The notes under the pieces are model-generated. The model had not been told where the DNA came from and did not search any database. It saw only the letters and a program-made list of their open reading frames with translations. Both the position numbers and the translations under genes were made by a program. From NCBI GenBank assembly GCA_021648525.1, contig JAKISP010000005.1, positions 1-64,000 on the forward strand: a DNA stretch of 64,000 nucleotides, read 5' to 3'. Each line of letters begins with the position of its first letter. The stretch's first letter is position 1. Positions 22,535 to 24,865 of the stretch are shown in pieces. Source of the DNA: Gammaproteobacteria bacterium (GTDB lineage: Bacteria > Pseudomonadota > Gammaproteobacteria > SZUA-140).

Positions 22535-22882
22535 CTACTCACCGGCCACACTTGCCGCAAGGCCCTCGATATCCTGACTAGTCGACTCAACATCTGCGAC
22601 AACGGCTTTACCATCTGCTTTAATTGCATCGATTTTTTTTCGCTCTTCGGCTAATTTAGCTTCAGTATTATCCACCTGCTTACTGCTTTCATTTAGCTTT
22701 AGCTGCGCCTTACTTAATAAGCCATCTTTAGCTTGCTCTACTTCTGTTGAAACCGATCTTAGCGAGTCGTTTAAAGCATCAAAAAAATTCGCATTTGCTT
22801 TACCCGCAGAGAAAACCATACCGCCCGCTAACATAACGGATACGAAACCTGATTTGACCGACCATATATTCCACCTTTTCAT
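22535..22882 (-). CDS. Small exported coiled-coil protein
   Basis: I place the start at the ATG at 22882 (MKRWNIWSVKSGF) because AGAGGGGAAAAGGGA lies directly before it; the frame is open from 22900. A signal peptide ends at about AGKANA. The mature part is about 85 residues, alpha-helical, with heptad-like Leu/Ala/Val spacing (KAQLKLNESSKQVDNTEAKL). No family recognised. It is convergent with the GGDEF/EAL gene (8 bp gap) and divergent from arsR. Confidence 0.6.
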   Translation of the reverse strand: MKRWNIWSVKSGFVSVMLAGGMVFSAGKANANFFDALNDSLRSVSTEVEQAKDGLLSKAQLKLNESSKQVDNTEAKLAEERKKIDAIKADGKAVVADVESTSQDIEGLAASVAGE

Positions 22883-22998
22883 TCCCTTTTCCCCTCTCAT
22901 ATTCTCAAAAGTAACTATAAATTCATCATTATCTAATTAACCCCACTCAATAGATATAAGTATAACTTAATATATAGCATATATTATCCAGTATGGGC

Positions 22999-23026
22999 TT
23001 GACTTTCGCATCATCCAGCCTATAAT
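22999..23026 (+). promoter_or_regulatory. Sigma-70 promoter of arsR-arsM
   Basis: TTGACT (22999-23004), a 16-bp spacer and TATAAT (23021-23026) form a near-perfect promoter. Transcription should begin about 7 nt later, at about 23033, one base before the arsR ATG. Confidence 0.8.
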
Positions 23027-23042
23027 TCGAAACATGTCGAAT
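23025..23042. promoter_or_regulatory. Candidate ArsR operator dyad
   Basis: ATTCGA (23025-23030) and TCGAAT (23037-23042) are perfect inverted arms around a 6-bp spacer that contains the start codon. Position over the -10 and start suits autorepression by ArsR. This is inference; ArsR operators vary. Confidence 0.5.
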
Positions 23043-23360
23043 AATAAAATAGATAGCGTACTGTTGTGTGAAGCATTCAAAGCACTCAGTAATCCACACA
23101 GGCTAGCGCTCTTTAATCGCCTGATGAATTGCTGCGCCCCAGGTACAAAATGCAGTCCTGTTGCGGCAGTACGCTATTGTGTGGGTGAACTTGGTGAAGG
23201 ACTCGATATTGCACCTTCAACACTCTCACACCACCTGAAGGAATTAAACCGAGCGGGGTTAGTTGAAATGGAACGAAAAGGAAAAAATGTCGAATGCTGG
23301 GTGGAACCAGCCAGGCTAGAGAAATTAACTACATTTTTTAAACCAGTCCAGAATGATTAG
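23034..23360 (+). CDS. arsR: ArsR-family metalloregulator
   Basis: The 108-residue winged-helix repressor has FKALSNPHRLALFNRLM at residues 15-31, a Cys cluster CCAPGTKC (33-40) and YCVGELGEG with Cys at about 49. A recognition region IAPSTLSHHLKELNRAGLV follows. The Cys residues fit an As(III) sensor of the type that accompanies arsM. The ATG at 23034 has no ribosome site, and the promoter predicts a transcript starting at about 23033. It is followed by the arsenite methyltransferase gene after 50 bp, probably one operon repressed in the absence of arsenite. Confidence 0.9.
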   Translation: MSNNKIDSVLLCEAFKALSNPHRLALFNRLMNCCAPGTKCSPVAAVRYCVGELGEGLDIAPSTLSHHLKELNRAGLVEMERKGKNVECWVEPARLEKLTTFFKPVQND

Positions 23361-23410
23361 ACTGACCAACTAACAAGACACCACTATTGTTCACACCAGA
23401 GGAAATTATC

Positions 23411-24268
23411 ATGGCAAAATCGAGCTGTTGTAGCCCTAAAACTGACACCACACAGGCCTCACAAGATGCACATCGTCAAAGTGTGCGCGATGCATATGGG
23501 CAGGTGGCACGCGCCGAAAATAACAATGAATCGATCGGCATTGAGAGTAGTTGCTGCGGTGTCTCTGATGACAGTGCAATCAACACCCTTATTTCGACCC
23601 GAATCGGTTATAGCGAAGAAGACCTGGCCAGCGCACCAGATGGTGCAGATATGGGGTTAGGCTGTGGCAATCCACGTGCAATTGCATCACTAAAAAGCGG
23701 GGAAACAGTGGTTGATCTTGGTGCGGGCGGTGGTTTTGACTGTTTTCTTGCGGCGCATGAAGTGGGTGAAACAGGCCATGTCATCGGCATCGACATGACG
23801 CCAGATATGCTCAGCAAGGCACGTAATAATGCGGAGAAAGGACAATTCAAAAACGTAGAATTTCGCCTTGGCGAGATCGAGCATTTACCGATTCAGGATG
23901 CGACCATTGATGTCATCATCTCAAACTGCGTGATCAATCTCTCACCCGACAAAGCCCAGGTGTTTAGCGATGCCTTTCGCGTACTTAAGCCAGGTGGTCG
24001 CCTTGCGATCTCTGATGTTGTAGCTACCGTTGAGCTACCTGAAGCGATGCGCAACGACCCTGCATTGATTGCGGGCTGCATGGGCAATGCGTCACTAATA
24101 AGCGACCTTGAAGAGATAATTAAAACTGCTGGCTTCTGCAACGTGCGAATTGAACCAAAAGATGAATCTAAAGCGTTCATTCGCGATTGGGCGCCAGACC
24201 ATAATGTGACTGACTACGTTGTGTCAGCCAGTATCGAAGGGGTTAAACCGGGTGGTAGCTGCTGCTAA
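23411..24268 (+). CDS. arsM: Arsenite S-adenosylmethionine methyltransferase
   Basis: The start is the ATG at 23411 after AGAGGAAAT; the frame is open from a TTG at 23387. The product (285 residues) has CC pairs at residues 6-7 and 48-49, Cys85 (GLGCGNPRA), SAM motif VVDLGAGGGFDCFLAA, DMTPDM, SNCVINL with a further Cys, and a C-terminal SCC. Cys48/49-type and the two central cysteines match the As(III)-binding set of ArsM enzymes, which methylate arsenite to mono-, di- and trimethylated forms. No arsenite pump gene is in the window. Confidence 0.95.
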   Translation: MAKSSCCSPKTDTTQASQDAHRQSVRDAYGQVARAENNNESIGIESSCCGVSDDSAINTLISTRIGYSEEDLASAPDGADMGLGCGNPRAIASLKSGETVVDLGAGGGFDCFLAAHEVGETGHVIGIDMTPDMLSKARNNAEKGQFKNVEFRLGEIEHLPIQDATIDVIISNCVINLSPDKAQVFSDAFRVLKPGGRLAISDVVATVELPEAMRNDPALIAGCMGNASLISDLEEIIKTAGFCNVRIEPKDESKAFIRDWAPDHNVTDYVVSASIEGVKPGGSCC

Positions 24269-24694: not shown

Positions 24695-24865
24695 ATTAAG
24701 GACATCTCTATTAATTCATGAACACGTACCTTGAACCCCAAATCTGCCACAGCGGCGTTACAAATCTTGCCAACAGGCAGCCCTGTTACCTGCGATTCGT
24801 GCCTTGCTGTGGCAAATCTGGATATCCAGTCTGCTGTGCTCAGAATTAATAGAGATGTCCTTAAT
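24695..24865. mobile_element. MITE-like element with 23-bp perfect terminal inverted repeats
   Basis: 24695-24717 and 24843-24865 are exact inverted copies (outer part AAGGACATCTCTATTAATTC). Inner segments CCAAATCTGCCACAGC and GCTGTGGCAAATCTGG are near-complementary, so the whole 171-bp element folds on itself. If the element proper begins AGGACATC and ends GATGTCCT, it is flanked by TA on both sides, the target duplication of IS630/Tc1-mariner elements. It encodes no transposase. The right end reaches the start codon of the alcohol dehydrogenase. Confidence 0.8.

Follow-up and report, generated by a model that had tools for sequence, protein, structure and literature searches.

A dyad conserved over the start codon of arsR as the putative operator of a predicted leaderless arsR–arsM operon

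Comparison with related sequences makes it quite likely that arsR and arsM, two adjacent genes in the window (the whole 64,000-nucleotide stretch of DNA analysed here), form an operon that is transcribed as a leaderless mRNA and repressed by ArsR itself through a 24 bp operator, from which trivalent arsenic would release it. The putative operator is centred on the arsR start codon, and ∼24 bp apparently serve at once as core promoter, repressor site, transcription start, translation start and coding sequence. What the sequences show is the layout, its conservation in a family of 86 arsR genes, the lack of a Shine–Dalgarno sequence and constraint at the DNA level; the 5′ end of the mRNA, co-transcription of the two genes, binding by ArsR and its release by As(III) or MAs(III) are inferred.

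Organization of the locus

The arsR gene (23034–23360, plus strand) encodes an ArsR/SmtB repressor of 108 residues and arsM (23411–24268, plus strand) encodes an arsenite methyltransferase (NF008823; 353.8 bits, cut-off 263), the pair making up an apparent two-gene arsenic operon. The arsM ATG is preceded at a distance of 7 nt by the Shine–Dalgarno sequence AGGA (23400–23403, plus strand). No in-frame ATG, GTG or TTG occurs upstream of 23034 in the arsR open reading frame in the window. A TTG at codon 11 was rejected as an alternative start, as no ribosome site is seen before it, and the use of another start codon throughout the family was likewise rejected, an in-frame ATG within 45 nt upstream being present in just five of the 86 members.

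The −35 hexamer TTGACT (22999–23004, plus strand) and the −10 hexamer TATAAT (23021–23026, plus strand) are separated by a spacer of 16 nt. The perfect arms of the dyad, ATTCGA (23025–23030, plus strand) and TCGAAT (23037–23042, plus strand), enclose AACATG, which carries the start codon (23034–23036, plus strand), and the right arm constitutes codons 2 and 3. The initial annotation had reported this promoter and these arms around the ATG, and each base of both agrees with the sequence. Transcription from σ70 promoters begins about 7 nt past the −10 hexamer. Since the −10 hexamer ends 7 nt before the ATG, the predicted transcription start is at 23033 or 23034 (plus strand), i.e. at the A of the ATG or one base earlier.

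A promoter scan of positions 22535–23400 gave a single site, with 11 of 12 matches, compared with 1.9 sites in shuffled sequences at the looser threshold of 9 of 12. The combination of TTGAC and TATAAT at the same spacing occurs once in 64 kb (0.15 expected) and at least once in 13 of 100 shuffles. The exact dyad is found at one site in the 3.36 Mb genome, versus two sites for a reversed control pattern, and with up to two mismatches at four sites in the window (3.1 expected). Considered singly, the promoter is slightly unusual for the window, and the dyad is no scarcer than expected by chance. What is improbable is that the dyad falls on the start codon, next to a near-consensus promoter.

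The arsR family

A protein search of 94 genomes gave 17 loci of the arsR family, including that of the window, its weaker matches belonging to ArsR-type genes of other kinds; the best 80 of 551 relatives came from scanning species genomes. From 114 loci, 89 non-identical members were obtained. The 86 that were found without the DNA motif, including the window gene (L004), were used throughout; L119, L127 and L128, found solely via the DNA pattern, were excluded from this set. Members have an hmmsearch E-value below 1 × 10−38, with the addition of L022, which is cut by a contig end; this cut-off was chosen after the gap between L113 (8.2 × 10−41) and L023 (1.1 × 10−22) had been seen. In each member, the dyad was assigned to whichever in-frame codon ahead of the conserved core scored best. 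The family proteins are 40–99% identical in pairwise comparison (3570 pairs). Outside the family the closest protein is L023 (43% identical), which lacks the dyad.

A downstream open reading frame could be read in 82 of the 86 members examined, and in 74 of these the next gene is ArsM-like. Among the eight other next genes, one encodes an SBF-family protein (L108), one a LysE-type protein (L113) and two a CARDB-domain protein (L094 and L098), while four have no Pfam match. The SBF-family protein next to the L108 arsR is presumably of the Acr3 type. In L113 and L108 the same ArsR and operator thus precede a LysE-type protein and an SBF-family transporter, respectively, in place of ArsM.

Conservation of the promoter and the dyad

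The −10 hexamer, placed 7 nt before the ATG, matches at five or six of six positions in 69 of the 86 members, and the best −35 match is five or six of six in 61, compared with seven of 344 control stretches. In 14 members the −35 match is merely three of six, so that their spacers mean little; in 71 of the 72 members with at least four matches the spacer is 16–18 nt. Column conservation sets in sharply at about −36 and is lacking from −46 to −37 in the 86 members, which argues that there is no conserved promoter just upstream. A 4 nt Shine–Dalgarno match is found in none of the 86 arsR genes, in contrast to 55 of 74 ArsM-like genes at the first candidate start and 73 of 74 at the best candidate start. 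A gene was regarded as leaderless by sequence if it has no Shine–Dalgarno sequence and its −10 hexamer ends 5–8 nt before the start codon, as is found for arsR in the window. The absence of a Shine–Dalgarno sequence before the arsR ATG, pointed out in the initial annotation, thus holds for the window and extends to the family, and the leaderless transcript that it proposed is supported by the fixed distance between the −10 hexamer and the ATG, by this absence and by the unconserved columns from −46 to −37.

The dyad is present in frame at the gene start in all 86 members (a set that draws on the best 80 of 551 relatives) with at least eight of 12 arm bases, and in 81 of them with at least ten. 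The codon at its centre is ATG in 84 members, ATA in L088 and ATC in L090. L088 and L090 both retain the promoter and the dyad (nine of 12 arm bases in L088), and the next in-frame ATG of L088 is 12 nt further on. These two members indicate that the overlap of the operator with the start codon is not obligatory, and the comparison suggests that the operator is held more strictly than this overlap.

The coding half of the dyad shows an unequal use of synonymous codons. At codon 2, TCG is used for 83 of 85 serines, whereas elsewhere in the same genes it accounts for 99 of 589 serine codons. Codon 3 is AAN (Asn or Lys) in all 86 members. The third base of codon 4 (23043–23045 in the window, plus strand), which forms part of the putative operator, is T in all 86, and nine different residues are encoded there (Y, N, I, T, F, S, H, C and R); among twofold codons at this position T is used in 69 of 69, versus 1029 of 1977 for these residues elsewhere in the genes. 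As related sequences are not independent, these codon counts are given without a probability. Identity at the third base reaches 0.95 for codon 2 and 1.00 for codon 4, where residue identity is 0.35; in the protein core third-base identity has a mean of 0.36, with 0.25 at two invariant core serines. The constancy of the T at codon 4 despite the nine residues indicates that the first codons are conserved at the level of DNA.

The mirror positions upstream, TTCGA (−8 to −4) and A (−12), are about equally constant (80–86 of 86). The family operator can be written as A..TTCGA-N6-TCGAA...T, a putative site of 24 bp which in the window is ATAATTCGA-AACATG-TCGAATAAT (23022–23045, no strand assigned); it is based on the column profile of the 86 members, pair counts and the genome scan, and the −10 hexamer doubles as the outer part of its left half. 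Co-variation of the arms at variable positions is not clear (31 complementary pairs at position −9/8, 31.1 expected), so that the symmetry rests on the nearly invariant columns on either side. The dyad lies over the core promoter of the regulator's own gene and is under constraint at the DNA level. The operator over the start that the initial annotation had envisaged is borne out by symmetric arms conserved on both sides of the ATG and by DNA-level constraint on codons 2–4, but its extent has to be revised, as the putative site is longer than two six-base arms.

An operator scan of the window's own genome gave a single site without mismatches, and the other eight sites carry three mismatches. 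A wider regulon was considered and rejected: apart from the gene's own site none has fewer than three mismatches, and sites with up to three number nine compared with 13 in the control. A single close site is as expected for a self-regulated operon. A DNA search with the pattern TTCGAAAYATGTCGAA, made independently of the protein, gave matches in 15 of 369 genomes from the class, against none for the reversed control, and all 15 sites are the start dyad of members of the same arsR family.

Alternative explanations and proposed mechanism

That a consensus promoter and an AT-rich dyad merely happen to coincide with the start codon would agree with the chance frequency of the dyad alone, but retention of the dyad by 86 of 86 family members renders a coincidence extremely improbable. 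Binding of the dyad by a regulator other than ArsR is very unlikely given that all 15 motif sites in the 369 genomes are at the starts of genes of the same ArsR family, that the window's own genome has one close site and that the dyad stays with the gene across seven phylum labels.

The conservation could also reflect translation, with codons 2–4 helping 70S ribosomes to load onto a leaderless mRNA and the dyad arising as a by-product. The conserved codons do coincide with the predicted mRNA 5′ end, which is where initiation on a leaderless message is determined. However, the mirror arm (−12 to −4), which precedes the predicted mRNA, shows about the same degree of conservation, although its outer part is also the −10 hexamer, and L088 has lost the central ATG yet keeps nine of 12 dyad bases; such an origin appears very unlikely. 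Improbable to a similar degree is an upstream transcription start yielding a short leader, in which the dyad would fold, as RNA, into a hairpin that encloses the AUG and regulates translation. An mRNA starting before the dyad is indeed predicted to fold with the ATG in a hairpin loop (−4.6 kcal mol−1, z = −2.5, with five of 200 shuffles equally good), and in one starting at the ATG the start is predicted to be unpaired. Several features speak against the hairpin: columns −46 to −37 show no conservation, the −10 hexamer overlaps the left arm at a fixed distance, a 4 nt Shine–Dalgarno match is missing in all 86 members, and the arms are so nearly invariant that no compensatory changes back an RNA stem.

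In the preferred reading of an autorepressed leaderless operon, transcription from a σ70-type promoter would begin at the arsR ATG or no more than ∼2 nt away from it, arsR would be translated as a leaderless message and arsM via its ordinary Shine–Dalgarno sequence. An ArsR dimer on 23022–23045, spanning the −10 hexamer, the start point, the ATG and codons 2–4, would exclude RNA polymerase, and trivalent arsenic binding to the ArsR cysteines would free the operator. By analogy with acuR (see below), a single mRNA might then provide little ArsR, which has no ribosome site, and more ArsM. Since half of the operator is coding sequence, residues 1–4 (MSN and a variable residue encoded by NNT) would be set largely by DNA recognition rather than by protein function.

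The ArsR protein

The protein scores above the cut-offs of the ArsR/SmtB models PF01022 (38 bits, cut-off 22) and NF033788 (62.7 bits, cut-off 55). The predicted structure is a winged helix with four helices, two wing strands and a last helix (mean pLDDT 76). Its cysteines comprise a CC-x5-C motif at residues 33, 34 and 40, together with Cys49 and Cys88. In the 86 members Cys33 is conserved in 85, Cys34 in 86, Cys40 in 82 and Cys88 in 85, and Cys49 is found in 55. In the model the CC-x5-C motif is located in a poorly predicted loop between helices 2 and 3 and Cys88 in a wing strand. Given the conserved cysteines, release of ArsR from its operator DNA by a metal(loid) is plausible.

Assignment to type 1 or type 2 of the known arsenic sites was rejected. 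In type 1 ArsR proteins, described in the portion of PMC11868830 used here, the site is formed in R773 by Cys32, Cys34 and Cys37, where helix 3 begins; of these three, Cys32 alone is matched here, by Cys49, and this is followed by V and G where type 1 has cysteines (from the alignment with Lmo1102; R773 itself is not in the alignment). Type 2, represented by AfArsR with a C-terminal CC-x5-C motif (Cys95, Cys96 and Cys102), has the same spacing, but at a different place in the protein, the motif here being at residues 33, 34 and 40 in the loop between helices 2 and 3. Cys49 and the wing cysteine resemble Cys41, Cys80 and Cys82 of ArArsR, although the six cysteines of ArArsR, as given in that portion of PMC11868830, include no CC-x5-C before helix 3. 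The stretch CC-x-PG-xx-C is conserved between helices 2 and 3 (residues 33–49, positions 23130–23180) and is perhaps an undescribed arsenic site.

Other ArsR genes

The initial annotation had called leaderless first genes uncommon in Gammaproteobacteria, a statement that has to be toned down because other ArsR-type genes show similar promoter placement. In the window's own genome this applies, as read by eye, to three of four other ArsR-type genes (L001, L002 and L005), with TATACT, TACAAT and TATAGT, respectively, 6–7 nt before the ATG. In L002 the promoter is TTGACA-N17-TACAAT and a dyad lies inside its spacer, and L005 has a dyad ATACTTGCA-N6-TGCAAGTAT extending to the ATG. Comparison loci from relatives were taken as high-scoring domain matches, one of 30 ArsR-type loci lacking a start. 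A promoter with at least nine of 12 matches is placed 5–8 nt before a candidate start in ten of 29 ArsR-type genes versus three of 30 TetR-type genes, and a 4 nt Shine–Dalgarno match occurs at any candidate start in ten of 29 and 15 of 30, respectively. Within an AfArsR-like subfamily of 30 loci (L201–L230, 28 readable), 22 of 28 have a hexamer with four or five of six matches that ends 6 nt ahead of the start, a 4 nt Shine–Dalgarno match is present in one of 28, and 14 of 28 carry a perfect dyad of at least six bases that stops no more than 2 nt short of the start codon or extends past it. The dyad of this subfamily, approximately ATATTTCNA-N6-TNGAAATAT, has a −10-like hexamer in its middle, ends at the ATG and differs from the operator in the window. 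From these sequences, the ArsR family in the class seems prone to a leaderless layout. What sets the present case apart is a broadly conserved putative operator that has the start codon at its centre and extends into the coding sequence, an arrangement of which no description for ArsR was found in the open-licence literature searched, as far as it was consulted.

Comparison with known systems

Leaderless autorepressors are already known, and the arrangement proposed for the window arsR is a variant of such a design. One of the closest known systems, described in the sections of PMC3017554 drawn on here, is acuR–acuI–dddL from Rhodobacter sphaeroides, in which the regulator gene is likewise first and is autorepressed, as proposed here. 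The acuR mRNA starts exactly at the AUG by 5′ RACE, acuR likewise has no Shine–Dalgarno sequence while the next genes have one, and its operator is an inverted repeat with N6 over the promoter, as is the putative one here. The leaderless first gene is translated less than its downstream partners, and acuR-like operons of other diverse bacteria also lack a leader (operator logo from 14 sequences). AcuR differs in being a TetR-family protein that senses acrylate, and in those sections its operator is described as overlapping the promoter, with codons not mentioned. In the nickel operon nreAXY of Mesorhizobium (PMC12724321, in part) a metal-responsive autorepressor is again first and conserved across strains, and mapping in Agrobacterium fabrum placed the start of the leaderless nreA mRNA on the A of its AUG; NreA is, however, of the CsoR/RcnR family and its operator is within the −35/−10 spacer.

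Among arsenic regulators, the arsR of Cupriavidus metallidurans CH34 is listed as leaderless from mapped starts (5′ UTR shorter than 5 nt) in the material taken from PMC7563307, according to which 4.67% of primary starts in this strain are leaderless, with enrichment in transcription genes. In arsRMC of Arsenicibacter rosenii the ArArsR footprint extends from −46 to −19 of the start codon, over the −35 hexamer, and as described in the relevant part of PMC11868830 it does not overlap the start codon. Other leaderless mRNAs of DNA-binding regulators are those of λ cI and Tn1721 tetR (cited in the parts of PMC3017554 consulted) and of the C genes of restriction–modification systems (PMC4824078, in part); their protein families and operators, as presented there, are unrelated to those of ArsR.

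Distribution and implications

The titles of the best 80 of 551 relatives are mostly those of Gammaproteobacteria, with Chloroflexi, Planctomycetota, Kofleriaceae, Nitrospinales and Gemmatimonadetes also represented; Halobacillus sp. Marseille-P3879 is among these 80 and its record is not marked as a bin. Isolates with the arrangement include this Halobacillus strain (L113), Acidithiobacillus ferruginosus CF3 (L080) and Thiohalocapsa marina DSM 19078 (L062). On a tree with few columns, weak support and 21 of 85 rows unlabelled, the seven phylum labels need ten changes, the minimum being six. To judge from the sequences, this spread may be the result of ancient descent, transfer or mis-sorted bins. 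Plasmid relatives are all less than 60% identical, and 34–39% among the matches listed (20 of 516); five are known from annotation tables.

There is about an even chance that this ArsR subfamily has become locked into leaderless expression, with operator, promoter and start codon forming one piece of DNA in which the operator writes MSN-x, that this has persisted through movement or divergence of the gene across lineages with seven phylum labels, that the AfArsR-like subfamily is similar with a different operator, and that leaderless self-repression, giving little repressor and much ArsM, is perhaps a common ArsR design. With this arrangement one can examine whether leaderless translation is itself under selection or is kept in place by an operator. 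As a start without a ribosome site it bears on gene finding; the signature TTCGAAAYATGTCGAA found arsR of this family, usually followed by arsM, and gave no control match. The compact promoter is potentially useful for arsenic biosensors.

Genome context

The upstream neighbours of arsR are a GGDEF/EAL-domain gene and a small open reading frame on the minus strand. Downstream of arsM is a gene weakly matching the LsrG isomerase model (93 bits, below the cut-off of 135) and, farther on, an iron alcohol dehydrogenase gene. Between the LsrG-like and alcohol dehydrogenase genes a perfect 23 bp inverted repeat surrounds 125 bp (24695–24865). Its arms are found again on contig C5 (24776–24942) with one or two mismatches, and it is perhaps a small mobile or repeat element.
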